Shown here one piece after another: positions 2,886-59,550 of a DNA stretch of 64,000 nt (position 1 is its first letter; every line of letters begins with the position of its first letter). Location of the stretch: contig NC_081811.1 of assembly GCF_030704535.1 (NCBI RefSeq), positions 4,691,001 to 4,755,000 of the forward strand, in the 5' to 3' direction. Source of the stretch: Vitis vinifera. Lineage: Eukaryota > Streptophyta > Magnoliopsida > Vitales > Vitaceae. The translations under genes and the position numbers were made by a program. Below the pieces are notes generated by a model. That model saw only the letters and a program-made list of their open reading frames with translations. It made no database searches and was not told where the DNA came from.

Positions 2886-5517
2886 ATGGCTTCAACACAG
2901 GGATCGTCGCCTACGACCAACAGGAAAGTAATCACCATACTTAGCATTGATGGAGGAGGGTTCCGAGGCATTATCCCTGCAGTCATCCTATCCGCCCTTG
3001 AGGCCGAACTTCAGGTTTTCTCTTACCATATCCTTTTGTCATTTCACATTCTTATTTTTTTCAAAATTGTAGTGCTGAAAATTACCATCAGCTACTGGCA
3101 GAAGGCGTACTTGCTAAAGCCAAAAGGGGTATATACATATACATGCATGATTTGATTGGCAGGATATGATATGTCACCGGTCTCTTATCTCTTATCTCTT
3201 ATCGCATCCCGTATTGTATGTAACACACCAAAAAGATTAGTAATGGTGCATATCTTGGAGAGTTGAGGTGAATTGACAAGGGAAAAAACAATTTTGTGAT
3301 TTTTGTTATATGCTGTTGCAAACAGAGACTTGATGGCCCTGATGCCAGGATTGCAGATTACTTTGATCTCATTGCGGGCACAAGCACAGGGTCAATTGTT
3401 ACAGCCTTTCTTACAACCCCATATCCACTTCCTAGTGCTTCAAATGGATCCACAACAAATCGTCCTTGCGAAGCAAAAGATATCCAGCAGTTCTACATTG
3501 AGCATGGCCCGGAAATATTTGCAAAGGAAGAAGACCCTGTTCAAACCAGGTACATTGAGACTGTGTGAATGGGAGAGAAAAAAGCAAGAAGAGCGTAATA
3601 TTTTAATCCAAATTAATTTCCTTGTGGTTGACAGTAAATCAGAAAGCTTCCTCGATGGGTTGAAACATTTGATTGTTCAAGGGGTGGAGAAGGTGCTGGA
3701 ATACAAATATCGTCCATCCCGTCTTAGTGAGAAAGTGGATGAACAGCTTGGGAAAATTCGGTTGGCTGACACACTAACCAATGTTCTTGTTCCTGCTTAT
3801 GATATTCAACACCTAAAACTAGTCACCTTCTCTTCTCACCAGGTCATCAATTTTTTTACATGATCAAGCATTAGTATTCATTCTTCTCATATTTGTATTT
3901 TCCATAGCATAAGACTCTGGGCCTATAATGCCGGCTTTAAAAGCCTTCTACATGATCAGCTCATGCAAACATGACGTCTTAGTTGTGTCCTATAGGTTTC
4001 CATAGCATAAGACTACAGGCTTATAATGTTGGCTTTAAAATCCATCCTCGTATAGGCATAACATTCTCATCATGTTTCATAGGATTGCAAGACCAAGCTG
4101 ACAAACATGGGGTTGTGGATCGACTTTGATATCATTTGTAATAACTGCCTTTCAATCATATAGATATTGTGTCTTTTAGGCCAAGGGGTCTTATGGCTTT
4201 AAACACATTTATATAATTGAAAGGAGCTTGTGTATATATATAATATTATAATTTTTTTTTCCTTATCTGATATGGGACATGACATATGATGCATGTTGCA
4301 TTTATGGTTGCAGGCAAGAAAGGCAGACTCATCAGTAAAATTGAGAGATGTAGTTATGAGCTCAGCTGCAGCTCCAGTTTTTTTCCCATCTCATAATTTC
4401 GAAGCCGATGGCAGAATGTACAACCTTGTGGATGGTGGAGTCGCAGCCAACAATCCTGTAAATCCTCTTCATACACAGGCCTTTAAGGGATCATATTTTC
4501 AAGATTTGTTGCCATTTGTATACACGATTCATTCATCATACTTGATGAAGCTGTCCCCTCTGTGCAGACATTGCTTGCAATACAAGAAGCAGACCATATA
4601 TTTGGAAACCGAGATTATAATTATCTGATTCTTTCCCTGGGCACTTGCTCTGAAGAAGAACACCAGAACTTCATTGATTTAACGGGTCCACTTCCTTGGA
4701 TGATAGACCTTAAGAGAGGAACACCACCATTGGCCAACGTGCTGTTCAAGACATCAGCCGACATGGTAGATGCATACACATTATTTGTCCTTGGAGTTGG
4801 AGGCCGGATTTCTAGTCAGAACTTTCTCCGGATCCAGGTAATTAAATGCACTTACATGAAATAGTTGAGCAATCCAAACAAGTTCCCATTAAAACTGATC
4901 AAAGATCAAAGATATAGGAGTGAATATTATCAGATTGATCTCAATTTTTACATTACTAAGGAAAAGAAAATTTGAACCAGGACAATACATTGAAGCCTGA
5001 GCAGCTCACAATGGATGATGCAAGTAAAAAAAACTTCGAAAGCCTGATTGATATCGCTCAAAGACTTCTAGAGAAGCCTGTTTCTTTCCCTAGCTTGGTG
5101 ATTGGTCTGCAACCAATGACTACCAACAGAAAAGCTCTCATGAGGTAATGAGCTAACAGGAATGGTGATTTAGAGCAAACAGTGTTTCTAGCTTTTCTAA
5201 CATTTGAAAACAATTCTTTTGATAAAAATTTTCAAATGTTAGAAAGGTTAGAAGTATTTCCTATAATCACCATCAAATCAATTCTTATAATTGGTTTACG
5301 AGTCATTGTTCACCTTGCTGCCATCCTCATATCATCCCCCATTTTTACTAGATAATGATTATTATTTCTCCCTTGCAGCTTTGCTAGATTATTGTCTGAA
5401 GAAAAGAAGAGGAGGGGTGGTTCTTTGTTCCACGTCTCTGGCTTCTTAATGTGTTCAATTATTTCTTCTCTTTTTCTCCTTTTTCTTTACAAGCTTTATA
5501 TGGTGTTTTACCAATAA
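2886..5517 (+). CDS. Patatin-like phospholipase A, 7 exons, intact
   Basis: Exons joined by eye: 2886-3014, 3326-3549, 3635-3842, 4314-4457, 4568-4837, 4981-5144 and 5379-5517, all with GT/AG borders. They give 425 codons in one frame. The family is acyl hydrolases with a Ser-Asp dyad that release fatty acids from membrane lipids, often in stress or defence. The oxyanion loop is DGGGFRG (residues 22-28), the nucleophile motif is GTSTG with Ser63, and the partner Asp227 is in DGG. There is no signal peptide, so the start is probably cytosolic, unlike vacuolar potato patatin. Oddities: Phe26 replaces the Val of copies C and E in the oxyanion loop. The last exon adds a basic stretch followed by about 20 hydrophobic residues (402-424), which looks like a C-terminal membrane anchor. 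TATA and start spacing match copies C and E. Best-preserved relative: copy E. Confidence 0.85.
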
Positions 5518-5849: not shown

Positions 5850-8800
5850 CTCCTCCTTGAGATTTGCCTTGGACATACCAAGCTTCAACCTTAGGAACTC
5901 CAGCCTTGATTTAGGAAGTCCTTTAGTCATTATGTCAGCAAGTTGCTCATCAGTTGAGCAATAATGCAACTTAACAAGTGAATTCTTTTCAGCTTCCCTT
6001 ATGGAGTGGAATTTTACATTTATGTGCTTGGTTCTGCCATGTTGGACAGGATTTTGAGTAATGGAAATGGCTGACTTATTGTCACAGTAAAGCTTAGTTG
6101 GTGAGCTTTGTTCCTGGCCTAAATCAACAAGCAATTTTCTCAACCATATTGCTTGATTTGCAGCAGCTGCTAAGGAGATATACTCAACTTCTGTAGTTGA
6201 TTGTGCCACTACTTCTTGCTTTCTTGAATTCCAGCATATGACACCTAAACCGATTGTAAATACATAACCTGAAGTGCTCTTCATATCATCAACACTTCCT
6301 GCCCAATCACTATCAGCATAACCATCTAGCTTAACTCCTCCTGTCTTTAAATACCAAATGCCAAGATTTGTTGTACCTTTAACATACTTTAGCACCTTCT
6401 TTGCAACTCCCATGTGAACATTTCTAGGTGAACTCAAGAACCTTGAAAGCAAACTAGCTGGAAACATCAAGTCAGGTCTAGTTACTGTCAAGTATAGTAG
6501 GCTGCCCACCAAGCTTCTATATGTAGAGGGTTTCTCAAGTTTCTCACCATCATTCTTTGAAATTTTCTCATTTTGTGCTAGCGGAGTTGCTACTTCTTTG
6601 CATGATTCTAGCTTGAATTTCTTGAGAATATCCATAGCATATTTTCTTTGTGAAATGAAGATACCCCAACTGCATTGGTATATTTCCATTCCAAGGAATT
6701 AGTTCATGATGCCAAGGTCAGACATCTCAAATACATCCTGCATTTCCATTTTGAAATCAGCTAGCAATTTTACATTGCTTCCAGTCACTAGCATGTCATC
6801 AACATAAAGTGATACTACCAGTTGCAAACCATCATCATTTTGTTTCAAATACAACGTAGCTTCATTTTCACTCCTCCTAAATCCAAGTTGGATCAGATGA
6901 GAATCAATTCTGCTATACCAGGCCCTTGGTGCTTGCTTCAAACCATAGAGAGCCTTATGTAGCTTGTACACTTTATGTTCATGGCCAATAACCTCAAAGC
7001 CTTTTGGTTGTTGAACATAAATTTCTTCAAGAAGTATACCATTTAGAAAAGCTGACTTGACATCTAAATGGTACACTTTCCATCCCATTTTACCAGCAAG
7101 TGCAAGTAGTAGCCTTATAGTGTCATGTCTGGCTACTGGTGCAAATGTATCACCATAGTCCACTCCAGCAATTTGAGCAAAACCCTTCACAACCAATCTA
7201 GCCTTATGCCTGAAGATTGAACCATCTGAATTAAATTTGGTTCTGAAAACCCATTTTACACCAATTGCATTCTTAGCTTCAGGTAGTTCTGTCAACTTCC
7301 AGGTTCCATTTCTTTCAATAGCATCAATTTCAGCTTTCATGGCCTCAATCCATTATAGAAATCTTGCAGCTTCCGTGTAACATGTAGGCTCAGCATGTAC
7401 AAGATTGCACCTCTCATACACATCAGATAATGGCCTCATCTTAAGCACGGGTGTGTCTGAAGTTGCTTCAACATCAAGTGGACCTTCAATGATTGTACTT
7501 TCTATTGCTGGTTCAAGAATAGATGGAGTGGTTTGATCACATTTATGAACTTTCTTCAAGTCCCAATTCCAGTAGGAGTTTTCATCAAAGTGCATATCTC
7601 TACTTATCACGATTTTCGTTATACTCAAGCTATAAATTCTGTAACCTTTTGATTCAGCTGCATACCCAACAAAAACACCTTTCTCAGCTCTTTCATCAAG
7701 CTTCCCTCTCTTGACAGATGGCACATGAAGATAACAAAATGAGCCAAAAACTTTCAGGTGCTTGACAGAAGGTTTTACACCAGACCATGCCTCTATTGGT
7801 GTTTTGCTCTAAACAAACTTAGTTGGTAGTCTGTTAAGCAAATATACTGAGGTGTTGACTGCTTCAGCCCATAGAAGTTTTGGTAGCTTCTTCTCGAATA
7901 GCATGCACCTTGCCATTTCCATCATGGTTATGTTCTTCCTCTCAGAGACTCCATTCTGCTGTGGTGAGTATGGAGCTGTTAGCTGGTGTACAATTCCAGC
8001 TTCTTGACAAAAGACATTGAACTCTTTTGAGATATACTCACCTCCATTATCAGTTTTGAGCACCTTACCGTTCTGGCCACTTTGAGTTTCAACCATTTTC
8101 TTGAAGCTTTTGAACACAGAGAACACTTGTGACTTGGTTTTTAGAAAATAAACCCAAGTCATTCTACTGAGATCATCAATAAATAATGCAAAATACACAT
8201 TATTGCTCAATGAGGTTGTGCTCATTGGTCCACAAATATCTGAATGAATTAATTCTAGCTTGTGAGTAGCTCTCTTGGACATATTTTGAGGGAATGGTTG
8301 TCGTTGTTGCTTCCCTAGCTCACAACTTTCACAAGTTTGAGCATTAACTGAGATTTCAGGCATGTCTTCAACCATACCAGCTTCTTGCATTAACCTCAGT
8401 GACTTCAAGTTGAAATGACCATATCTTTTGTGCCAAACAACACTCTCATCAATCTTAGCACTAAAGACATGACCTTCAACTAAATCAAGCTTCAAATAAA
8501 AGCTATTTCCATTCATTTTAATTTTTGCTATCTCTTTTCCGTGTACATTAGTGATCAAACAAAAATTTTCTTTGAAAGAGACTGCATATCCATTTCTTAG
8601 CATTTGTGCAACACTAAGAAGATTCTGATCTAAATCTGGAATGTAAAGAACATTAGTGACAATTTTTGTACCTCTCTTGGTGCTGATAGAAATTGTCCCT
8701 TTTCCTTTGGCCTGCACAACTTCACCATTTCCCAACTTGACCTTTGGTTGAACTGATCTATCAATGGAGGTAAATATTGACAAATATTTGGTCATGTGAC

Positions 8801-9942
8801 TCGTGCAGCCACTGTCAATGAGCCAAGTATTCAGTTCATGAGAACTGAGTGCTTGTGATGCCATAAATAAATGCTCATCATCATTTTTGTCTTCTTCAGT
8901 CACACTTGCATTTTGTTCTAGTTGTTGTTGAGATTGTTTTTTCTTGGCTCTGCAATACTTCTCACTGTGGCCAAGTTTATTGCAGAAATTACAATTAAAG
9001 AGAGGTTTACCTTTGTGCCAACAATCTTTCTCAGCATGGTTGGTTCTTCTACAATGAGAGCAAGACGAAAATTTTCCTTTTCTTGAAGACCCTTCACCTT
9101 TCCTTTTGTTGTTCTTGAAGAACTTCTTTCTTTGCAAGTTTCTAGAATTCTTTCCCTTGTGATTTGCTTGAAAAGCACCTTCAGTAGCTTCATCACCTCT
9201 CATTAAGACCCTTTGCTCCTGTGCATGAAGCTTGCTGGTTAACTTTACAATTGTGAGAGTTCGCAAGTCACAAGACTCTTCAATTGCAGAAATCTTGGCT
9301 TCAAACTTTTGAGGCACTGAAACCACAATCTTTTCTACCACCTTTTGATTTGTAAATGCCTCACCAAGAAGCCGCATTTGGTTTACAACATCCATTAACC
9401 TTCCAGAATAATCTTTGACAGATTCGTCGTCTTTCATCTTCATCAACTCAAACTCTCTCTTCAATGTGAGGAGTCTAACAGTTTTGACTCTTTCACTGCC
9501 CTCAAATTCACCTTGGAGCTTGTCCCATACCAGTTTAGGTGTTTCCAAGTTCATGATTTTGGTGAAGATGTGGTCTGCAAGTCCTGAATGTAGGCAGGTG
9601 ATGGCTTTGTCTTTCTTAAGTTTTTCTTCCTCATATGCTTTCATCTGAGCAACTGTAGGATTTGCTCCCAATGGTGGTGGATCAGCTTCAGACATCACAA
9701 CATTCCACAAACCTTGAGACCTTAAATAAAACCTCATCTTGACAGCCCAAATGTGATAGTGTTCACTATTAAACACTGGAATTATAGAGGAAGTATTGCT
9801 AGAAGGAGACATGTTTGCACCACAGTTGCTTAAAAAAAAAAAAGATCACTCAACCTCACTAGTGTTTGCACTCAACCTCACTGTGTTTAATACTAAAAAA
9901 AAATTTGCCTCACAGCCCGTAGGAATAATGCTTTGATACCAC

Positions 9943-10956: not shown

Positions 10957-12407
10957 ATGATCCAAACCCCTGCAACCTTACGAAGAGGACTCAAAAAATC
11001 CTATAAACCCCCCAACATCCAGGATGCCAAAAATCTTGCTATTGCTCCCCTAAATCTAGGCCACCCTGTTTTATCCTTACTATCAAAATGCCAAACCATG
11101 GCCCATTTCAATCAAATACATTGCCTAATGATCACCACTGGCATGTCCCGTGATGCTTTTCCGGCTAGCAGATTACTTATAGCTAGTTCATTCTCTTTGA
11201 GTCCTCCAAACATTCACCTGGCTTATGTTGTATTTTCGCAAATGCAAAGCCCTGATGTATACTCATACAACATTATGATTAAGGCCTTTTCACAAACTTC
11301 ACATCCACTTGATTCCCTCCACTTTTACCACAAGCTGCTCCACCAAGGCCTATACCCCAATGAGTACACTTTCTGTTTTGTGCTCACTTCATGTGCCCAA
11401 GCCTTGGCTCTCCAAGAGGGCAAACAAATACAAGCCCAGTTAATCAAACACCTGTCTTTGGGCACTGTCTATGCTAGCACCTCTCTTGTTCGCTTGTATG
11501 GCAAATGTGGTGACATCCGTAGGGTAGAGCTTTACAAGCATTCGGGGAAATGTCTCACAGAACCGAGGTCTCATGGGGCGCAGTAATTGATGCTTATATT
11601 GATCAAGGTTTTTTGACGGATGCATTGCAATTGTATGCAAAGATGAGGAGTTTGGGACATTCAGCAAGCAATGCAATCTTGGTGGGGGCATTTGGTGCTT
11701 GTGCTAAGCTGCAGGACTTGGCACTGGGGAGGATTATTCCTGGGCAAGTTGAGGCCATGGGGCTACAACTCAATGTGACCCTTGGAACAAGTCTGGTTGA
11801 CATGTACTCAAAATGTGGAGCTATCGAAATGGCCATGGAGGTATTCTCTAGGATGCCTGTGAAAAGTGTTGCATCATGGAATTGCATGATCAACGGTCTG
11901 GCAATGAATGGTGGGGGAAGCGCAGCAATTGGCTTGTTTAAGGAGATGCAGGCGTCTGGTTTGGGACCCAACAGTGCAACCTTTGTGGGTGTCCTGCATG
12001 CATGCAGTCATGGAGGGCTAGTGAATGAAGCACTCGAATTCTTTTCGTGTATGAGTGAGTTGTACGGGATTGAAACTAATGTTAAGCATTATGGGTGCAT
12101 GGTTGATCTCTATGGCCGAGCTGGGAAGCTTGAGAAGGCCGTGGATGTCATCAGAACGATGCCCATGAAACCGGATATTGTAATATGGGGAGCATTGTTA
12201 GGTGGGTGCAAGGAGCATGGCAACGCAAAGCTTGGGGAGCTGGTAGGAGCACAGATTATGAAGCTACAACCACATAAGGTTTCCGGGTGCTCGAGTCTTT
12301 CGGATATGTATGCGATGGATGGGCGATTGGAGGACGTGATCAGTGTAAGGAGGATGATGCTGGACATGTATGTTGGGAGGGAACCTGGATGTAGCACCTT
12401 GACTTAA
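10957..12407 (+). pseudogene. PPR gene A, frameshifted
   Basis: This is a copy of the intact PPR gene at 39055-40500, about 98% alike by eye. It encodes the same PLS-type PPR array with a C-terminal E-like motif. Relative to the intact copy it carries five extra bases near 11525 (GGGTAGAGC against GGGC), right after the GDIRR stretch. These shift the frame, and translation ends at 11586. The downstream part stays open in another frame to 12407. No intron can remove the five bases. A His-to-Pro change also follows in the second half. I judge it a recent pseudogene, or possibly a gene with a short N-terminal product. Confidence 0.85.
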
Positions 12408-38214: not shown

Positions 38215-39054
38215 GAAAGAGAGAAAAATTCTTTGAATTTGATGTCTGGGAATATGGTTATTGCTTGTCCCTATTAGAAATAAAGGATGTACATTCCATG
38301 TCTTAATGAATAATTCTCTTTCGGATGCAGCTATTTATCAAAAGAAAAAATCTCTTTTAGATGGAGCTAGTTTTCACAACAACATTATAAATCTTACAAT
38401 CATGTAATCAATATAAAAGATGTATTATAACATGGAGTAAGGATGACAATTTGTGTTAGTGGTCATATTTATTTATGTCATGTCAAAGCTTAGGCAAATG
38501 TTAAATAAGTCATTTCAAACACAACACGAATAATAATTATATTAAAAATATAAATTCATATATTCTATATAATTATGAAACAGATAACATGTTTAGTGAC
38601 TCATTTAATAACCAAATTGATTTAAATTTCATGAATCTATATGATTAGTGTTCAAACCAGCTATGTTTATGATTCAATTGATTTATTTATTTAAATCAAA
38701 TTTAAAATGAGTAAAATATGGTTAAATAGTTTAAAATTGCAATTAGATTAATCAATATGATTATTAGATGGCTTGATTCCATCAAATTTCGTATTATGTG
38801 GGTTGATCCAAAAGCTACCTATTATTTCTTATATAGATTATGTGGCATTCGAAATTTGATCCAAATATGATTACACTCATCCTAAACCCACAAAAAATGT
38901 ATTGGGTTCTAATTAAGGCTACTGCAGTTGCTTATTCAGATGGTCTGTATAGAAAAGCCCATGCTGCTCAGGATAGGCTGATCCTTCTAAACTACATCAG
39001 GACAGGATGATGCACAGCTCCAATGCAGTAGGCAAGTGCAGGAGCCATTTTTGG
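38215..39054. other. 3' flank of patatin E and PPR leader
   Basis: No gene seen. It contains the unoccupied Copia target (CATTC once, 38292-38296). The last 150 bases are the conserved PPR leader. Confidence 0.6.
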
Positions 39055-40500
39055 ATGATCCAAACCCCTGCAACCTTACGAAGAGGACTCAAAAAATCCT
39101 ATAAACCCCCCAACATCCAGGATGCCAAAAATCTTGCTATTGCTCCCCTAAATCTAGACCACCCTGTTTTATCCTTACTATCAAAATGCCAAACCATGGC
39201 CCATTTCAATCAAATACATTGCCTAATGATCACCACTGGCATGTCCCGTGATGCTTTTCCGGCTAGCAGATTACTTATAGCTAGTTCATTCTCTTTGAGT
39301 CCTCCAAACATTCACCTGGCTTATGTTGTATTTTCGCAAATGCAAAGCCCTGATGTATACTCATACAACATTATGATTAAGGCCTTTTCACAAACTTCAC
39401 ATCCACTTGATTCCCTCCACTTTTACCACAAGCTGCTCCACCAAGGCCTATATCCCAATGAGTACACTTTCTGTTTTGTGCTCACTTCATGTGCCCAAGC
39501 CTTGGCTCTCCAAGAGGGAAAACAAATACAAGCCCAATTAATCAAACACCTCTCTTTGGGCAGTGTCTATGCTAGTACCTCTCTTGTTAGCTTGTATGGC
39601 AAATGTGGTGACATCCGTAGGGCTTTACAAGCATTCGAGGAAATGCCTCACAGAACTGAGGTCTCATGGGGCGCAGTAATTGATGCTTATATTGATCAAG
39701 GTTTTTTGACGAATGCATTGCAATTGTATGCAAAGATGAGGAGTTTGGGACATTCAGCAAGCAATGCAATCTTGGTGGGGGCATTTGGTGCTTGTGCTAA
39801 GCTGCAGGACTTGGCACTGGGGAGGATTATTCATGGGCAAGTTGAGGCCATGGGGCTACAACTCAATGTGACCCTTGGAACAAGTCTGGTTGACATGTAC
39901 TCAAAATGTGGAGCTATCGAAATGGCCATGGAGGCATTCTCTAGGATGCCTGTGAAAAGTGTTGCATCATGGAATTGCATGATCAACAGTCTGGCAATGA
40001 ATGATGGCGGAAGCGCAGCAATTGGCTTGTTTAAGGAGATGCAGGCGTCTGGTTTGGGACCCAACAGTGCAACCTTTCTGGGTGTCCTGCATGCATGCAG
40101 TCATGGAGGGCTAGTGAATGAAGCACTCGAATACTTTTCGTGTATGAGAGAGTTGTACGGGATTGAAACTAATGTTAAGCATTATGGGTGCATGGTTGAT
40201 CTCTATGGCCGAGCTGGGAAGCTTGAGAAGGCCGTGGATGTCATCAGAACGATGCCCATGAAACCGGATATTGTAATCTGGGGAGCATTGTTAGGTGGGT
40301 GCAAGAAGCATGGCAACGCAAAGCTTGGGGAGCTGGTAGGAGCACAGATTATGAAGCTGCAACCACACAAGGTTTCCGGGTGCTCAAGTCTTTCAGATAT
40401 GTATGCGATGGATGGGCGATGGGAGGACGTGATCAGTGTAAGGAGGATGATGCTGGACATGGATGTTGGGAGGGAACCTGGATGTAGCACCTTGACTTGA
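39055..40500 (+). CDS. PLS-type PPR protein, E-like C-terminus, intact
   Basis: This is an intronless gene of 481 codons. I prefer the Met at 39055 (MIQTPATLRRGLKKSYK), whose basic, Ser/Thr/Lys-containing start suits organelle import. An in-frame Met pair 48 bases upstream would give 497 codons. The protein shows successive PPR motifs of the PLS class: SYNIMIKAF, VSWGAVIDAYIDQG, TSLVDMYSKCG, SWNCMINSLA, LGVLHACSHGG and GCMVDLYGRAGK. It ends in a degenerate E motif (DMYAMDGRWEDV, EPGCSTLT). Proteins of this class bind organellar RNA one base per repeat and usually take part in C-to-U editing. No DYW domain is present, so a deaminase partner would be needed. It is the only undamaged one of four copies here. 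It converges with SWC4, 811 bp away. Confidence 0.9.
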   Translation: MIQTPATLRRGLKKSYKPPNIQDAKNLAIAPLNLDHPVLSLLSKCQTMAHFNQIHCLMITTGMSRDAFPASRLLIASSFSLSPPNIHLAYVVFSQMQSPDVYSYNIMIKAFSQTSHPLDSLHFYHKLLHQGLYPNEYTFCFVLTSCAQALALQEGKQIQAQLIKHLSLGSVYASTSLVSLYGKCGDIRRALQAFEEMPHRTEVSWGAVIDAYIDQGFLTNALQLYAKMRSLGHSASNAILVGAFGACAKLQDLALGRIIHGQVEAMGLQLNVTLGTSLVDMYSKCGAIEMAMEAFSRMPVKSVASWNCMINSLAMNDGGSAAIGLFKEMQASGLGPNSATFLGVLHACSHGGLVNEALEYFSCMRELYGIETNVKHYGCMVDLYGRAGKLEKAVDVIRTMPMKPDIVIWGALLGGCKKHGNAKLGELVGAQIMKLQPHKVSGCSSLSDMYAMDGRWEDVISVRRMMLDMDVGREPGCSTLT

Positions 40501-44300: not shown

Positions 44301-47300
44301 AACAATAAATATGCTGAAAATCAATAATCTAAGGGTCTGGTTAAGCATAAGTTGAGAATTAAGATGGATGTGCCTCGTGAACCAAGTGGACAGAAAAGAT
44401 GACTTTTCAGAATTTAGTGGGAATCCAAGAGAAGTGAAAGATAAACAAAATGAAATTTCATCCATATTCAACTGTGACAGAAAGTTTTATTGAAAAAAAA
44501 AATATCATTAAAGGTTACAAGGAAAAAAAATACCAAGCAAGGGGAACAAATAAAGTGCCAGGAAGCTAAAGCAACATTCATAGAAAAACTATCCAATGAT
44601 AATTAAAAAAAAAAAAAAAATTTAATGCTGGAGATGATTTCATTGTCTACATGTTACAGATATCACTCGCAATATGACATGGAAAATAATATCTCCACTT
44701 TATAGTTAAGGAGCAAATACAAACCCCAAGATCCTGTAGAGTTTGCTCAACCCGCTTGATAGTCCTAAGTCCAGCAGATGAGCTTGCAGCTTGCACCATT
44801 TGCTCAAGTGCATACGTTCTCAAGTATACCCGCATCTGAGAACATTCCCAGTCAGTTAGGCAGCTAAAAATTCTTGATGATTTTTACTGTCTTGAAATGG
44901 CAACATTATTAAATAGGAAGAGCCAGGAATTAATGTCTTAGTATGAAATATTAAGATATAGAAATATTAGGAGATCCACTTTACAAGAAGCAAACAATTC
45001 CTCTAACAACCTTTTTCAGATAAGGCAACATCCAAATTAGAACTAATCCTTGTGGACCAAAAGAAAGGGGAAAAAAGGCACAACTGCAAATGAAATTATT
45101 GAAAGGAAGAAAAAAGAAACAATCAAACTACAATTTAAGCTGGCCGTAAGGCCATATTAAAAAAGAATAAAGAAAAAAGAAAAAAAAGGAGAAATCATAA
45201 TTTGAAAATAATTATAAAACATACCCCACGTAGTGAATTTAGAGTGGATATATCATCAGCTGTAGATGTTGGAGGTGCAACAGTTGTAGGGGGAATCTGA
45301 ACATTGGAAGAAGGTGACACAGTCTCAACAGGAATAATATTCTTTTCGTTACTTTCAGGGCTGACATTTGATGCGACAGGCATATCAGACTCTTCAGCAC
45401 CCTGAAAAAGAAGAGTATAAAGAACATAAGATATAGTGCCTATAAAACTCAGACACACAAATCGTCATTCTGAAATTAAAACAAGAAAATTTCATTCCCA
45501 CAGCAAGAGTTTAATTCTTTTCAGAGCACAGCAGGAATACAACCACACACACACCACAAACTAAAATTAAACAGTGAAAAAATAAAATCTTAAAAAGAGA
45601 ACTGCCATAGGCAGCTTAATTAAGTTCCTAGCACATACTTGGCAGAGTTCTGAAAGACTGCCCACATGTTAATTTCAGACTCACAAATCCATTAAGGCTC
45701 ATATTTTAGGCCCTTCCTATAAGTCCAGAGAGAGCCTCAACAACCTGCTTTCTACCTCACATAAATAAAACTTAAAATGCAAACTCAGTTTGACAAGGGC
45801 GCCTTTAAGTGTAACACTACTCAAACAGAATATTTTCATTCAAGGATTGCAATAAGATCTGTAACCACTAGTGTTGGGTCAAAGATATTTAATACAAAGC
45901 TCACTTCATTCAGATTGTCCAACTGACCAAATTGTACATCTGTTTAAGACTAGTGACTGCAACCCTCCAATCAGTGAACCATTACTAGCCATTCCCAATA
46001 TTTCTACTAACCTTAGAGATATAACTAATCAAAAGATTGGAATATTATGATCCATAATATAGCTACACAGAAACTGCCAAATGCAGATAGCAACAGTGAT
46101 AGATAGAGGAAGGAAGTGCCCTGGTGAAGTTTTAAATGATAGAAATGGGGAAGAAGGAAGGGAGTAAGGTTGATTAGAGAAGCATATTAGAAAGCAAAAT
46201 GAGAACATTACATCAAGTGTATAGGAAGTAATCATAAGTAATGTGTATGTGTCATCAACAAGGGAGTATTTAAAATCTAGAATAAAAATTGTCTTAAATT
46301 TCACCTCCACAAGTGAGAATATAATAGTAAACTTGTAACCTAGTAGAACTGTAAAGACTGATTACTATAGCTAGCCTAATAATGGGTTGATTATAATCTT
46401 ACAATCAACTAGTTAACTAATTTTAACAATTGCTCTCATATTTTTGGGTTCAAAGCTGATGCCCTTAAATCATGAAACAAGGATTAGCCAATGTCACATG
46501 TAATTTTAATAAGCGCATATCCCCTTTAAGCTTTTGCTAAAGTCACCAATTACTAAAATCAAGAATAGTTGCATATACAGTCCTACACCCTTACCCTTGC
46601 AGCAATGCGTGCTTCAGTAATTCTTTTGGCTTCAGCAAGAACCTGAAAAGGGAATAATACATAAAGGAAAAAATAAGAAATCAAATATGTTTCATTTTAG
46701 AAGTGTAAATGCAGATCACAGAATTCAGCCTTTTAGAAACTATTAAATGAAATTTAAACCTCAGCATCTTTTCGCTCTTGCTGCTTTGTCTGGGAAAGGA
46801 TCATGGATAATGCACGCTTGCGTTCAACCTCTTGTGAAACATTATATGGTTCCTATATAAGAAGAAAAGCTTAAAACCAACAAGAAAAAGAATGATTTGA
46901 AATAACAGACCTCTAATTTAGTTATCCAAATATGACAAATTAAAAGAAAATCATACATATAAAGAACATAGAATCTGTAGCCTAAAAAATTTAATATTCA
47001 TTTAGAAATTCCATTCATAATGTCAAAGTACCTTTACAAGGGGGTGCCCAGAAACATCGCCTGAAGATGGAGCTCTAGCAACCAAAATAGCTCGGGATAC
47101 TATGCCAGAAAGTGTCATAATTGTTAATATATCACAAATTTCTCAAGATCACGTCCTAAAATGTCCCAAAAGCAGTATACAAGTGATTGACTTGAGCATA
47201 AAACCAAAATGTAAAATGAACACATGACATTGGAGCAAGAAATTGGAAATACACAATAATCAAACAAAGGGATAGACCTGTACCACTATAATAGCGATTC

Positions 47301-48988
47301 TTCAAATCCTCCACAGTTCGAGATGATGGAAACCTGTCAGCTATTACAATGAAGCGGAGATCAAATCGTTCGCACAACTCAAATAACTGATCTGTCTCTT
47401 CCCTGGTCCACGTCTAACAAAGAGAAAGCATAAGTTAGAGAAATTTAAGTTGATCCATGAAATACTGACACAGAGGTATCACAACATATGCATTCACTGA
47501 TGTACAAAAATTAAGCCAATCTAACAATTCATAAGAAGCATGTTTCAGCATACAAGTTCTGGATCTTCAATTTTCTTTCTTATTAATAATGAACAAGAAA
47601 TAAAATCTGAATAAACTTTTACATCAGATCTGAAATCAAATCTTGCAAATTAAGTGCAATGAAATTATAAAGTAGCAATCTTGAGTTGATACCTACAGGA
47701 TCAGTCAAATACTTCTCATACTCCTCATCTGTGTATTTGACAACATTGACAGACTGCACCAAGTCAAATAAAAGTCAAATATTCAATGTCACTGGAGAGA
47801 TGTCTTTGTGGCACAGCATGTATGAAGATAGGAGCATACTTCTGTATACCTTGTTATACTTAGCAAAAGAGTAGTCACCAGTTGGCGGAACACCATTTAC
47901 AACTCTGACCTGCAAAGTATAAAAAACAGAAGGTTCCTTCAAATCTCCAGGTATGTACTTAAACAATTTTTCAAAATGTTGCAGAAACATACCCAGTGAT
48001 AAAGCTGCAAATTATCAGTCCGAGCAGAACTTGTAAAAGGAAGCCACTGCCAAGTAACCTGAAGAATGTTCAAATTATTAGAAACCATACCCTAATGGTA
48101 ATCTGAAGAAGATAGAAATGATGAAAAACATTAACATAGCATAGCTAATTGAAAAATCTAAGATGATCAACTCACACATTCAGGTAAGGTCAACTAGCAA
48201 TAACTGATTATGCCCACTGTTTTTTAACTATTTATTCACTTTACTGAACTCACACATTCCTTCATATCATTTTTTGCAGAATTTAGTTTCTAACCTGCCA
48301 CTGATCTAATCTAACATCTCCAAAAGATTATAAGCAATGCCTTTTAGCTGACTAGCACACAGGAGTGAATTTTAAATACAGAATCAGCCAAAATGACACT
48401 AAAAACAGGTGGAAAGCACTTTCATCTTAAAAATAATGAGAAATAAAAAATGAATAAAAAGGGAAGCACTTTCATTAATTTCGCTTCTGAAAAAGTCAAA
48501 AACTATTTTCGTTTCCACTAGAGAGCCATGATAGACATGAACTTCAACAGCACCAAAGTTAACAAATCAACGATTCTGGACGACTTCCACTACATCTAAA
48601 CCCTGAATTCACCTGAAATCCAAGTGATTCTCCAAACCAACTCAGCTAATAGATGAACCATGGCCAAAACCTTTACCAATGGAAAAAAACTGACCTTTTC
48701 GTCCGATTGAGGCCGCCGTTTCAGCTGAGAGACGTCCACTGCAGGCATTAGGGGCGCCAAACCCCCTGTAAGCGCATAAACCTACAATATAAAGAACCAA
48801 AAAAACGCAACATTGTAAAAATTCAACCAAGGCTAAACAAACAGGAACAAAATATGCATACATAGAGAGCATACCTCTCGCGAAATGCCATCCGGTTTTC
48901 TCTGAGAATCCTTCTGAGGTCTTGATTTCTTCTCTTGAGGTGCAGTAAGTGGAGTTTTGGGCAAGCCGAGAATGTCCTTCGCGTCCAT
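41312..48988 (-). CDS. SWC4: SWR1-complex subunit 4 / DMAP1 homologue, 16 exons
   Basis: Coding exons (high to low): 48988-48875, 48781-48695, 48058-47993, 47909-47850, 47753-47697, 47413-47284, 47099-47032, 46852-46760, 46642-46595, 45401-45225, 44835-44725, 44170-44075, 41937-41866, 41698-41662, 41525-41491 and 41374-41312. All have GT/AG borders and they join in one frame of about 437 codons, the usual plant SWC4 length. The start [13 protein letters not shown] is typical. A SANT/Myb-like domain begins [16 protein letters not shown] (about residues 130-171). The C-terminal DMAP1 region includes [11 protein letters not shown], and the end is basic ([11 protein letters not shown]). In plants SWC4 is shared by the SWR1 and NuA4 complexes and acts in the nucleus in H2A.Z loading and H4 acetylation. 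Intron 12 is 2.1 kb; its proximal half, with the last four exons, was copied to 13.2-14.9 kb. Confidence 0.96.
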
Positions 48989-50989
48989 TGTAAAGATTTC
49001 GGAGAACCAGGGGTTTTCGGGGGTAATTAGATAGGATTTTGGGATCAACAATCAAGTTCCATCGCACAATTCACAAATTTCCCAATAAAAAAACTAGGGT
49101 TTCTACGCTCTGATTTCGATTCCGAACTAGCGAATTGAAAAATTCAGATTTCTTTGGCATCGATTCTTCATGAAGACGAATTGGGGATTAGGGCTTTTTC
49201 GAGCGCGAAAGTTTAGAGCAGTACCATTCGGATCCGAGTACTTAGTGTCACCCGCGGGTGAAATAACTGCAATGCTTCTGTCAAACATCTCGGATGGACT
49301 ACAATTACCTTTTGATGCAGTATTTTACAGTTACAACGGGTTTTTCCCCTAATCTGTATGTGATTAATACTAATCTCTCCTTAATTTATTCATGTTATTA
49401 TTAACAAGTCTACTTCAATAAAAATAAATAAGGACATTAATTAACAAGTCTACTTTGAAATAAGAACAACTGTAGTTTAATTTCATCATAGATAATAAGG
49501 ACTAAGAGATGTTTAGTATGTGAAAATTGGTAGTTTTACTAAAAGAATATAGATAATTAACCATTAAATATTTTTTTTTGATGGATTTATTTGAGATATT
49601 TAATAACGAATGTTTAATATTCAAGTAAATTAAAAAATAAATGTAAAATTATTTTTTATAGAGTCTGGTAAAATTTAATACTTATTATTTAATGATTTAA
49701 ATTAACTTTAAATCAGATTATACTTTAATTTGTTGACTTAAAACTTATTAATTAATTATTATTTTTAAGTATCTAAATTATTTAATAAAATTAATTTAAA
49801 ATTTATTTTAAAATATCAAATTTACATATTTATTATCATAGATTATAAGTAAGGTAAAGAAAATCAATTAATAATGAAGACTATAGAGTAATGAAGTAGA
49901 TCGTGAAAGTAAAAATGTAAAATAAATATATGAGTTTAATAATAAATTAATTACTTTTACTTATTACTTTAGGTTATTTTTTATTTTAAATCATATTATT
50001 AAGTTATTTTATTAAATATACTTAATTTATTTAATGACTTAAATTAAGTTATTAAGTCATTTTAAGTTATTTGGTTGATTTATTAAACATATACTTGTAA
50101 TATAACTTTGGATAAGATCCTCTATCATGATTTCAAACACTCCGAGTTCACAAAAATATTCTTATACCTTCTATACAAATATGGATTATGAAACATCATT
50201 ATATAATATAAACTATCGGTAGAGTTTTGTATAAGGAGATTATTTCTACAATTTTTCATATATTGTTTATGTTTTTTTATATATATAATTTTGGTTACAT
50301 TTTTATAATATAATTATATTGTTATTTATATTTTAATTTTTATGGTAAATTAAATGCTATGAAATTATGTCCTTTAGGTGTGATTTAAATACATTTATAT
50401 ATAAAAAAAACCATTTAAAAATTTGAAGTATTAAAAAAAGTTTATATCTCAAATTTTAAAGTTGACATTATTTTTACTCAGACTCAATTATAATCTATTT
50501 AAACTTTTGTGTGTGCTTCCACTTATAATACTCATCCAAAAAAATTAGTGACGAAAATAATTATTCAAAGAAAAACTCTAATTCAACTCTCCAAAAAACA
50601 ATTTTTGAAAATAATTTTTTAATTTTTTAATTTTATTTTTAATTATATAATTTAAAAAATAATAATTATGAGAAATAAATTAAAAAAATAAAAGATATTT
50701 TTTGAAAATATTTTTCTTATTTAGAAGAAACATAGAATTGTTTTAAAAGAAAATTCCTAACCAGACCTAGAATTTCCAAAAAACACGGCAACGCCTTTTC
50801 ACTTGAAAAGCGCTCTAGCCTCTAGGCTCTAGCATATTCTCACAGTGTACCGGACAGAGTTGACCGGGCCATCCAGTGGCCCATCTAAGTTGCTTTTCTG
50901 ACATGGTGGGCCCTGGGCCTGTTCGTGACAGGCCCACCTTGACAGCCCACTGCCTAACCCAACTTTCCCTACATAAACCCAACACCCCC
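48989..50989. other. Spacer between SWC4 and TAS3 (head to head)
   Basis: The first 100-250 bases would be the SWC4 5' untranslated region and promoter. From 49.35 to 50.76 kb the DNA is extremely A/T-rich and no gene is seen. From 50.78 to 50.95 kb it turns G/C-rich, with several GGCCCA/TGGGCC motifs of the TCP-bound site-II type and a CATAAA near 50975. This looks like the TAS3 promoter. Confidence 0.5.
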
Positions 50990-51197
50990 TCCTCACTTCC
51001 CTCTCTGAGAAAAGCCATTAAGTGAAAGCCTCTAAAAAGGTATGCCAAAAGAGAAAAAAAAAATCTCTCTTTCTCTCGTAATCTTTCCCTTCCACAATCC
51101 CACAATTCTCACACTATGAGTCCTGAATTATGGTTTTCTGATCATATATATAAGTATACTTACCAGGGTTTTTCTTCAATTTTCTTTTTCAGGTACT

Positions 51198-51284
51198 ATG
51201 AGTGATGCTGCCATCTATGAAAACCCTATGGTCGACAACTACTCAAGGGAAAGAAAAAGTGCTCATGGATGGAGCCATGGTTGA
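51198..51284 (+). CDS. Upstream short ORF in TAS3 leader
   Basis: A 28-codon frame, MSDAAIYENPMVDN and onward to a TGA at 51282. It starts 6 bases after the putative intron acceptor and overlaps the next short ORF in another frame. Coding use is uncertain; it may only tune which start the ribosome reaches. Confidence 0.3.
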   Translation: MSDAAIYENPMVDNYSRERKSAHGWSHG

Positions 51285-51339
51285 GATTCAGATCAGAATG
51301 GGAAGTTTTTTGGCATTACTAGTGATAAGGTGGCATTAA
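51217..51339 (+). CDS. Short ORF ending at the 5' miR390 site
   Basis: A 40-codon frame from the ATG at 51217, or 24 codons from the in-frame ATG at 51265, reads up to TAA at 51337-51339, exactly three bases before the 5' miR390 site. A short ORF stopping just before this site is a reported feature of plant TAS3 RNAs. Ribosomes halt there against the AGO7-miR390-SGS3 complex, which helps siRNA production. The peptide (ending LALLVIRWH) has no known role. What matters is probably the stop position. This assignment rests on the position and on the known feature of the family. Confidence 0.6.
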   Translation: MKTLWSTTTQGKEKVLMDGAMVEIQIRMGSFLALLVIRWH

Positions 51340-51342
51340 TTT

Positions 51343-51363
51343 GGCGCTATCCTACCTGAGCTT
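51343..51363 (+). promoter_or_regulatory. 5' miR390 site, non-cleavable type
   Basis: Begins GGCGCTATCC and ends CCTGAGCTT, the exact complement of miR390 except for two central bases (TA in place of CT, opposite miRNA positions 10-11). Central mismatches at the 5' site, which block slicing but allow AGO7 binding, are the norm for TAS3. Confidence 0.95.
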
Positions 51364-51430
51364 ATTAAATTAAGTGTTATGTTGTTATCCCTTTCCCGGT
51401 TGTGTTTCCTTTTGTTCGGGTCATTACTTC

Positions 51431-51472
51431 TTCTTGACCTTGTAAGACCTTTTCTTGACCTTGTAAGACCCC
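51431..51472 (+). ncRNA. Tandem tasiR-ARF pair
   Basis: TTCTTGACCTTGTAAGACC starts at 51431 and again at 51452, so two 21-nt units abut exactly. The first ends TT, the second CC. These equal the D8 and D7 siRNAs of other TAS3 genes, which target ARF2, ARF3 and ARF4 transcripts. Confidence 0.96.
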
Positions 51473-51588
51473 GGGCAAAATCCGCTATCCTTATTATATC
51501 AGTCGAGAAGGACTTCCTATTAGACACTACTGATAAAGAGTTCAATAATCAATACTTGATGTCCCCAACCTACTCGTCATCTCCTTCA

Positions 51589-51609
51589 TTGCCTATCCCT
51601 CCTGAGCTG
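51589..51609 (+). promoter_or_regulatory. 3' miR390 site, cleavable
   Basis: Contains CTATCCCTCCTGAGCT, 16 bases fully complementary to miR390 and spanning the slicing point. Mismatches lie at the four 5'-most positions and at the last base. Expected cut between 51599 and 51600. Confidence 0.94.
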
Positions 51610-51900
51610 TTTGAATTACACTACCAACTTGAAAAAACCCTTTCTAAGTTCTCATGGAAGGACTGCAACTCTTATTTGATTAGGGTCTTAAACATCTTAT
51701 GCCTATAGCTTTTTTTTTTTTTGGGTTCTCATGCAGGCCAAGAAAGTTGTTTCTTTCTCGTTATGTAATTTTTTTTTTCTTTGTAGTGGAAGCTTTTATC
51801 TATGATCGAATCATATCTTCATACACTGTGTTATTGGTCTAATCTTTTTGCTTTTTTTTTTTTTTAACTTTTCGTTTTCCTTTCCGAGCTTATCACATTC

Positions 51901-54900
51901 ATGAGGTGGTAAGAACTTCACTGTACTTACTGTCTTCTTTTTTTTCCTGTGAGTATTTGTCTCAGAGCATGTGCTGCAATTTCATGTGGCAGTGGGTCTT
52001 TTTCACAAACCCACCAGCTATTGTCCCATTAATTCTTTCTTTTCAGTCTTTTTTTTGGCCTTCTCGATGGACTACACTTGGTCATGGCATATCTTCAGAG
52101 TTCAGACCACTGAACGTACCACTACTGCATATTCCTAAAGACATGAGGAAAGGGCCAGCTGATGAGCTCACCCATCTCTTTTAGTACTGTAAATGAGACA
52201 AATTCCCATGCTTGATTACCAAAACGCATCACCCATGGTTTACTTTTAAGTAATTAAAAAACAAAACTAAAGGGTATATTCACAAATTTTTTATATGGGT
52301 TTGAAAGAAAAAGCCCCAGCAGAAACCATTAGGGAAAGAACCAAAATTTTTATGGTAAGGGAAAATAATATACAACAAAATTATTAAAATGTCAATAGTG
52401 CAGTATGATTGAATTACAGACCAAGTCACACTTCTGAAAGGGATGGAACAAAAACTGGCGGGCTTGCAAATCATTCTTTGTGGTTTTTTTCTACTTTTCC
52501 TTCTGATAATCTCAACATTACCCAATTTAGACCCCCTTGTCTGCTGCAAGAATCTCATGTTAGTCCTGAAAAGATTCACCCACGTGGTGGGCCATTTTCT
52601 TTTCCCCTGAGAAAACAACTTGTTTGATATAGTTTTTATCCTTGTAGCCCTGTTGAATATTACCAAGGGACACCTGCAAGAATCTCAAAAAAGATGCCTG
52701 GTTTTTCAGAGATGCCCATTGTTTCCTTTAGGCTTTAGCATTAGAGGAGGTGATGACCTTCCATTTATTCTTTGGAGGCTTACTTTCCAAGAAATAATCT
52801 GGCAGTCCCATGTCTCAATCATCTCATACAACACACACCCTGTTGGTGTGTTACAGTCACAATGATATACATGGAGTCATTCAGATGTGCAGTAGAGACC
52901 ATCTTTTCTAAGATTCTTTGGGTTTTGGCATTTCTTCTACCACATCTACCAAATAGAACTCAAACAACTATATAATCTTTCAAGGGAAAAAAAGCTATAA
53001 AGGATTTAGGTTATGATTAAGGCGCCCATGAAGTCCTCACACCCATCAATTTTCTTTACAAGAAATGATGGTGAGGCTGAGAAGTGATTACAAAGGTAAA
53101 AAAAGAAGGAAAGATTAAGACATGATTCAAATTCAAGTCCTCTTTTTAGCTTGATGCCACTAGGGTTTGTCTCCATACGTAGGTGGCTACCTCCCCCACA
53201 CCATCTTCTCAGACACTCATGACAAGGCACTCAATTATGGTGCGTCCTTCATCTTCCGGCCACTATATGAGCCATGGGGTTTGATGGACTTTTTCCAAGT
53301 GTAAGGCACATGAAAGAGGTCATCTTTTCAAAAGCCATTTCCACCTTTTGGGTAACATACGAACATGGGGGTGAGCCATTTGACTATATGCGCAAGGAAG
53401 AGATAAAAAAATGTGTCTCCCGGGGTTGGATTTTTTGTCTTGAAAAGGGAGAAAATGACACTCCCATAACACTTCCAATCATCTCCCCTATACCCTAAAT
53501 ATTGGATCTAACCCCACTCAATGCCCCTCTTGATGTAGCGGGGTGCCGGGTACCCCACCTACTGTTTGGAGCAATATGTGTCGAAAGGAGGTCCCCTTTT
53601 CCCATTTTCGGATGGTCGACACGTCCATTGATTACCACCAATTATTTCTTTCCTTTTTTTTTTTTTTTTTTCAAACCATACGTAATTCTAATCGCTTTCA
53701 TTTTCGTAGGAAGATTTGTTTTGCACTGGTTTAATTCGAGGAATCCAAAGTTGAGCTATTCCAATTCAGTAGGTGAGAGTGTAAGTAGGGTCCCACGTGG
53801 GTGGGGACCGTGGGGTTGCATTAAACCAGTTTAGTCAGAGGAATCCTAGGTCCAGTTATTCTAATTTCAAGCCATTACTGCCTGCTCAAATAATTCTCTT
53901 AAATTTTAACATTTTTTTTTTACCATCATGTTTGTAGGTATTCTATTCGATGTGAAGAGGTAATAATACTAAGTTACAAATTTACAATATATCGTGCTCT
54001 AGTGAACATACATATAGAGAAAAATTATAAGGGTATAAAAGTAATTTCACATTCCGATAATTAAATTTGTATGATGAAATCTATACCATTAGATGAAAGT
54101 GTAAATAAATATAATTCAAAAACAAAAATAGAAATAACATGAATAAATGAGACATTTATGGCGTCTTTTCATATAATCACTCATATTTTCTTTGATTCCA
54201 TATTATAATGGTAGGCATCATCCATGATGTAATCACGAGCGTAGCATGGTGAATGCATCTGATTGTAAAAGCCAGGGTGGAGGGAGGGAACACTATAGTC
54301 CACCCTCACCTGGCCAAATGAATTTATGCCTCAATGGGCCCACTGAGTACAATTGGGCCCTGTATTAGGCATACAGATGGATTAGACCAGGCCTGACAGG
54401 CCACAAGGACCTTTGGCCCTACTTTTTAATGCTAGAGGGTCGACAGAGACGAAAAATGTCTATTAGAAAGAAGTGAAAATGGAAATCGGATCTATAAGAA
54501 AAGTGGGTGGTTTGTGTCTTCATTTTAGTTTGGCTCGGCTCGCTCTGTTGTGGGTCTTGAGCATACTCAGCTTATATCTAATGGGCCCACCCAACAAAAT
54601 CCACTTTGTAACCTATTTGGGCCATGTTTTGGCTAGTGCTGTGATGGGCTAGCTCGAGTGTGGCCCACAGATCTGGCTTCAGGCCTTTGTGGCCCTATCC
54701 AGCTTTTCCTATCCAAACATAAGGGGCCGTTTGGAAGTGATTTCGATGATGAAAGTGCTTTTAGCTTGTAACACTTTTTATTAGTAGTATTTTTATCATA
54801 CATCTTGTATAATACAATCCACAAAAAGTGATTTGATAATGTTTTTGATGATATATTATATGACAAAAAATTAATTTTGAAAAGAAATACCAATCAAGTA

Positions 54901-59174: not shown

Positions 59175-59550
59175 AGGCACTTTAAAGTCATAAAGGTTCG
59201 TTGGACTCAAAGCTGACAATACCCTTATTCATCATGCTTGAACCAAAGCAAAAGTCATGATATAATGAAGGGTTCTAAAGTTGTAAAAGTATATTAGATA
59301 AAAAGGCAATGATATATGTATCCATTGAGCTTGAATCGAAGTGAAAGTTATGGAATAATGGAAGACTAAAAACTCATTGGGTTCAGAGTCGATAATATTC
59401 GTATTCATAATGCTTGATTCAAAGCAAAAGTGATGCTATGATGGAGGGCTTTAGAGCCGTGAGGGTTCATTGGTTTCAAGGCCGACAATATCTATATTCA
59501 CTGTGGTTGGACTGGAGTGGAAGTCCTGGTATAATGGAGGGTACCATCAT
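59175..59550. repeat. Four-unit degenerate tandem repeat, ~90 bp
   Basis: The motif 'GACAAT, TATTCAT, GCTTGA, AAAGT, ATAATGGAGGG' returns four times, with anchors near 59215, 59305, 59391 and 59484 (spacings about 90, 86 and 93). Together with the CCCACAT motif upstream and the CCTTTACCCATATTTAAAGG stretch near 59610, this looks like part of an old LTR with internal repeats. Units differ by 20-30% by eye. Confidence 0.6.

Follow-up and report, generated by a model that had tools for sequence, protein, structure and literature searches.

TAS3 genes have been found in many land plants, according to the available text of PMC4457045. In grapevine the copy named vviTAS3 has been described, and there one of the two TAS3 miR390 sites is non-cleavable, 14 of 79 siRNA positions (18%) lie in the miR390 register, a share that becomes 40% once rare reads are removed, and a siRNA with a 5'-U, 5'D2(-) or ca-siRM147, is reported to cut the transcript it derives from (PMC3742267). 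The portion available of a 2025 study shows the use of two NCBI grapevine TAS3 loci, LOC100244732 and LOC104879803 (PMC12038946), and a review, in its accessible part, states that VvTAS3 siRNAs target Plasmopara viticola transcripts, with the TAS3 copy unspecified (PMC11999821). In Arabidopsis, Ribo-seq shows ribosome coverage of TAS transcripts bounded by the miRNA site, and the same paper, in the text available, cites work by which that site has to lie close to an upstream stop codon (PMC5207768). The primary phase of Arabidopsis TAS3a is given as register 2 in the accessible part of PMC12127299. How does a further grapevine locus compare with these systems?

The stretch of DNA analysed here, the window, is 64 kb long (C7:4691001-4755000, in a genome of 495.6 Mb and 21 contigs), and element positions are given in its own numbering. 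Both strands were searched for the miR390 complement (at most seven mismatches) and for tasiR-ARF (at most six). Four TAS3 elements are present, all on the plus strand: a miR390 site, two tasiR-ARF units and a second miR390 site. This is the arrangement and canonical order that the first-pass annotation had claimed. Elsewhere in the window, neither strand carries a match to the miR390 complement or to tasiR-ARF with fewer than five mismatches. The elements and the features that accompany them are as follows.

50907-50961, plus strand: candidate promoter-proximal block common to the C5 paralog (local alignment score 31, reached by 1 of 500 dinucleotide shuffles)
51040-51192, plus strand: predicted leader intron (GT...AG), with GTATGC at 51040 and CAG ending at 51192
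51198-51284, plus strand: 28-codon overlapping ORF, opening at the first AUG of predicted exon 2
51205-51339, plus strand: 44-codon ORF, candidate ribosome-loading ORF, its stop ending 3 nt before the 5' miR390 site
51343-51363, plus strand: 5' miR390 site, 2 differences from the perfect complement, predicted to be bound and uncleaved
51364-51599, plus strand: predicted siRNA-producing region between the two miR390 sites, register counted from the predicted cut
51431-51451, plus strand: tasiR-ARF unit 1 (5'D8(+) class), 0 differences from the canonical 21-mer
51452-51472, plus strand: tasiR-ARF unit 2 (5'D7(+) class), 2 differences from the canonical 21-mer, both at the 3' end
51589-51609, plus strand: 3' miR390 site, 5 differences, at miR390 nt 1 and nts 18-21

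The locus is almost certainly a TAS3 gene of the long type with two tasiR-ARF units, a paralog of the already studied copy on C5, and one that would work by the family mechanism. It appears canonical in every feature tested, and the same sequence features identify three TAS3 loci in the genome, this one included (long on C5, long on C7, short on C11). The TAS3 interpretation proposed at first pass is therefore supported: all the TAS3 sequence features tested are present, and the same genome holds MIR390 and ARF genes with target sites. A TAS3 gene of this kind is ordinary for a flowering plant. An Rfam scan of the window gave no match at gathering scores, which says little because, to our knowledge, Rfam has no TAS3 family; a tRNA scan of the window found no tRNA. 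The gene family is already known, and the window copy has probably been catalogued in grapevine, probably as either LOC100244732 or LOC104879803. The available text of the grapevine TAS3 literature covered here (PMC3742267, PMC6404619, PMC12038946, PMC11999821 and PMC5388765) gives no second TAS3 position on the chromosome of the window.

The two miR390 sites differ in their pairing. At the 5' site, miR390 nt 10 is mismatched, nt 11 forms a G:U and the remaining positions are paired; a central mismatch is the known pattern of a miR390 site that is bound but not cut. At the 3' site nts 2-17 are paired, and pairing alone predicts cleavage between 51599 and 51600, the same place at which the cut had been put in the first-pass annotation. 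Counted from there, the tasiR-ARF units end at 148 and 127 nt (127 = 6x21+1), each 1 modulo 21. The pair thus represents units 8 and 7 with a displacement of 1 nt, within 1 nt of the exact 21-nt register and not in it. Register 2 of Arabidopsis TAS3a would be the same 1-nt shift.

Could such elements be chance matches? The 19-base core of tasiR-ARF has two exact matches in the window, and 100 dinucleotide shuffles average 0.01 match even at three or fewer mismatches. Genome-wide, with at most one mismatch, the core matches 11 times and the reversed pattern 0 times; four of these matches are in the C5 and C7 TAS3 loci, six are antisense to ARF sites and one is an orphan on C14. The orphan 19-mer (C14:29567667, one mismatch) was rejected as a TAS3, its best miR390-site match within the 3019-base locus L015 having 10 mismatches on its own strand and 9 on the other. 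The 16-base core of the miR390 site gives three window matches at three or fewer mismatches against 0.84 expected, and 7 of 100 shuffles reach three. Across the genome, at one mismatch or none, it does not stand out from its control (30 matches versus 28 for the reversed pattern, pooled over mismatch numbers). The miR390-core counts are thus unremarkable; what stands out is the exactness of both window matches. Among the genome matches listed, six are exact: two at the window locus, two at the C5 locus and two antisense in MIR390 loci.

Which copy is the published one? The four published grapevine ca-siRNA sequences, at three positions, are all perfect matches to C5 and have 8-11 mismatches to the TAS region of the window. 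With all four exact on C5, the genome is very probably that of Vitis vinifera and the published vviTAS3 (PMC3742267) is the C5 copy, located at C5:1555198-1555456, and the window copy is its paralog. Position 1 of the published siRNA numbering is base 4278 of the extracted C5 locus (L053:4278). The register arithmetic used here predicts on C5 a 5'D2(-) unit that is exactly the published ca-siRM147, and this serves as a check on the method. By BLAST, homology to the C5 TAS3 covers 51336-51471 at 76% and 51569-51617 at 84%, with inter-locus E-values that are unreliable in the AT-rich flanks, as the reversed C5 sequence scores 1.55e-5. Compared unit by unit without gaps, D8 has 21 of 21 bases in common with C5, D7 20 of 21 and D1 18 of 21; D2, in the same ungapped register, has 11 of 21 and D3-D6 have 3-8 of 21. 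A deletion in C5 (L053:4393/4394) falls downstream of the tasiR-ARF pair and before the 3' site, so the ancestral spacing is probably the 127 nt seen in the window copy. An origin of the C5 and C7 copies by genome triplication gained no support from three synteny probes (a patatin-like frame, a 162-aa frame at 59411 and an SWC4-like exon), all without a match on C5 or C14; these test synteny poorly, since the patatin-like frame comes from a clustered family and each of the other two matched nothing but itself.

Each of the three TAS3 loci found here has an ATG ORF whose stop lies a few nucleotides short of the 5' miR390 site. It has 68 codons and a 1-nt spacing in C11, and 36 codons (59 after the predicted splicing) and a 3-nt spacing in C5, as compared with 44 codons and 3 nt in the window. 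As a background rate, ORFs of 25 codons or more stop 1-3 nt upstream of 639 of the 62400 window positions (1.0%). The three loci do not amount to three independent tests, because they are related to one another and had been inspected before the 1-3 nt range was set. To use the 44-codon ORF, ribosomes would have to skip the first AUG of exon 2, since that AUG opens the 28-codon frame that ends at 51284. At the 3' splice site the C5 and C7 copies have TTCAGGT(G)ACTATGA in common, with an alignment score also attained by 22 of 500 shuffles. A possible conserved block downstream of the 3' site (51883-51922) was dropped, since 45 of 500 shuffles attain its score.

The first-pass annotation had placed the locus in an otherwise empty stretch. 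Within what was scanned the description is fair: of 13 open frames in 44.6-61 kb, 11 have no Pfam match and the other two belong to an SWC4/DMAP1-like gene. The scan covered a minority of frames, 108 of at least 50 aa being listed for 41-64 kb. The SWC4/DMAP1-like exons (47159-47774, minus strand) lie upstream of TAS3 and point away from it; the frame at 47159-47413 matches SANT_DAMP1_like at E 1.2e-18, and the second frame, at E 0.031, is below the Pfam cut-off. Farther off, patatin-like phospholipase frames are clustered at window 4293-37552 and extend leftward to C7:4684081, with 10 matched stretches on C7:4684081-4728552 including the query, one of them with internal stops. Two pentatricopeptide-repeat open frames (11523-12404 and 38977-40497) both end in an E motif, which in the first scores below the Pfam cut-off, and are possibly duplicates of each other. 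A Copia-type retrotransposon gag-integrase frame occupies 7812-9845 on the minus strand.

Two kinds of pathway partner, miR390 and ARF genes with target sites, are encoded in the same genome. Two MIR390 loci, on C8 (110.2 bits) and C6 (106 bits), score above the Rfam cut-off of 77, and both contain the exact mature miR390. The ARF target 21-mer has 10 matches in the genome at two or fewer mismatches, against 0 for the reversed pattern. Six are in four ARF genes (C6, C10, C17 and C7:2.64 Mb), in open frames reading VLQGQE, and PF06507 (ARF-domain) matches are found 0.4-1.7 kb upstream of all six on the same strand; four are antisense to TAS3 units, two on C5 and one each on C7 and C11. Pairing of unit D8 to the ARF sites on C6 and C10 involves one G:U, as does that of the window copy's D7 to the site at C7:2.64 Mb. 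Sites, units, register and target sites can thus be read directly in the DNA. By analogy with the TAS3 family, the window copy would be transcribed, miR390-AGO7 would bind the RNA at both sites and cut it at the 3' site only, and SGS3/RDR6 would convert the 5' fragment into double-stranded RNA. Dicing by DCL4 would then produce 21-nt siRNA units, two of which would silence ARF-family mRNAs.

Might the elements have outlived the function, the gene being a silent or decaying paralog that is untranscribed or uncut, with the C5 copy doing the work? The low similarity to C5 in D3-D6 and D2 would fit such a view, as would the origin of the published siRNAs, none of the four of which matches the window copy. 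However, drift would not be expected to keep both miR390 sites, D8 and D7, the central mismatch of the 5' site and the position of the ORF stop, all of which are intact. Moreover, the silence of PMC3742267 on the window copy says little, because that paper deals with one TAS3 locus and kept reads only if their map position was unique. Loss of function is accordingly a very unlikely reading.

Does the region instead encode a short protein? The 109-codon ORF at 51379-51708 would be the coding sequence, and no other of the 13 ATG ORFs of 20 aa or more listed for 50800-52100 is longer. Yet its open frame (51340-51705) has no Pfam match at E 0.01, the ORF runs across the tasiR-ARF units and the 3' miR390 site, and the blocks common to C5 are the sites and units themselves. 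We give almost no credence to a protein-coding gene here, and a TAS3 gene that would act through its siRNAs is the reading retained.

Given a working TAS3 gene in the window, do the two long copies have the same role? One idea is that they have the same ARF-silencing output and differ in feedback, the window copy being a TAS3 source free of the self-cleavage cascade of C5. The window unit that corresponds to ca-siRM147 begins with 5'-C, or with 5'-G or 5'-A in neighbouring registers, versus U in C5 (three registers tested), and no target with fewer than seven mismatches was found in 50981-52000 for any of the three 21-nt C5 ca-siRNAs. The antisense units D3-D5 of the window copy, in the register of the tasiR-ARF units, do start with U, so that other units might cleave the window transcript. 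We regard the idea of different feedback as speculative and rather unlikely.

Grapevine small-RNA studies should consider three TAS3 loci. Because D2-D6 have only 3-11 of 21 bases in common, reads that fall downstream of the tasiR-ARF pair and before the 3' site are attributable to one copy; D8 is identical in both long copies and D7 is one base apart. The locus also illustrates how sequence by itself can reveal a non-coding developmental regulator, in a place whose tested open frames match no protein family.

A comparison with other TAS3 loci, suggested at first pass, finds the same element order in the long C5 copy, and a single tasiR-ARF in the short copy on C11. The C5 gene, vviTAS3, resembles the window copy in having two miR390 sites with nearly the same pairing (its 5' site has one more G:U), a tandem tasiR-ARF pair that starts 60 nt past the 5' site (67 nt in the window) and an ORF stop 3 nt before that site in both. 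It differs in that its units end 147 and 126 nt from the cut, in exact register, and in its ca-siRNAs, as the window copy contains 0 of the 4 published sequences. The short TAS3 (L047, C11:11183800-11187300, minus strand) likewise has miR390 sites on either side of tasiR-ARF and an ORF stop before the 5' site, but with the one tasiR-ARF, site starts 172 nt apart and a tasiR-ARF end 104 nt from the cut (5x21 minus one). Arabidopsis thaliana TAS3a, likened here by description and not by sequence, is similar in its two-hit miR390 trigger; PMC12127299 and PMC5207768, in their available parts, add a small ORF bound by ribosomes outside the region that gives siRNAs and a primary phase at register 2.
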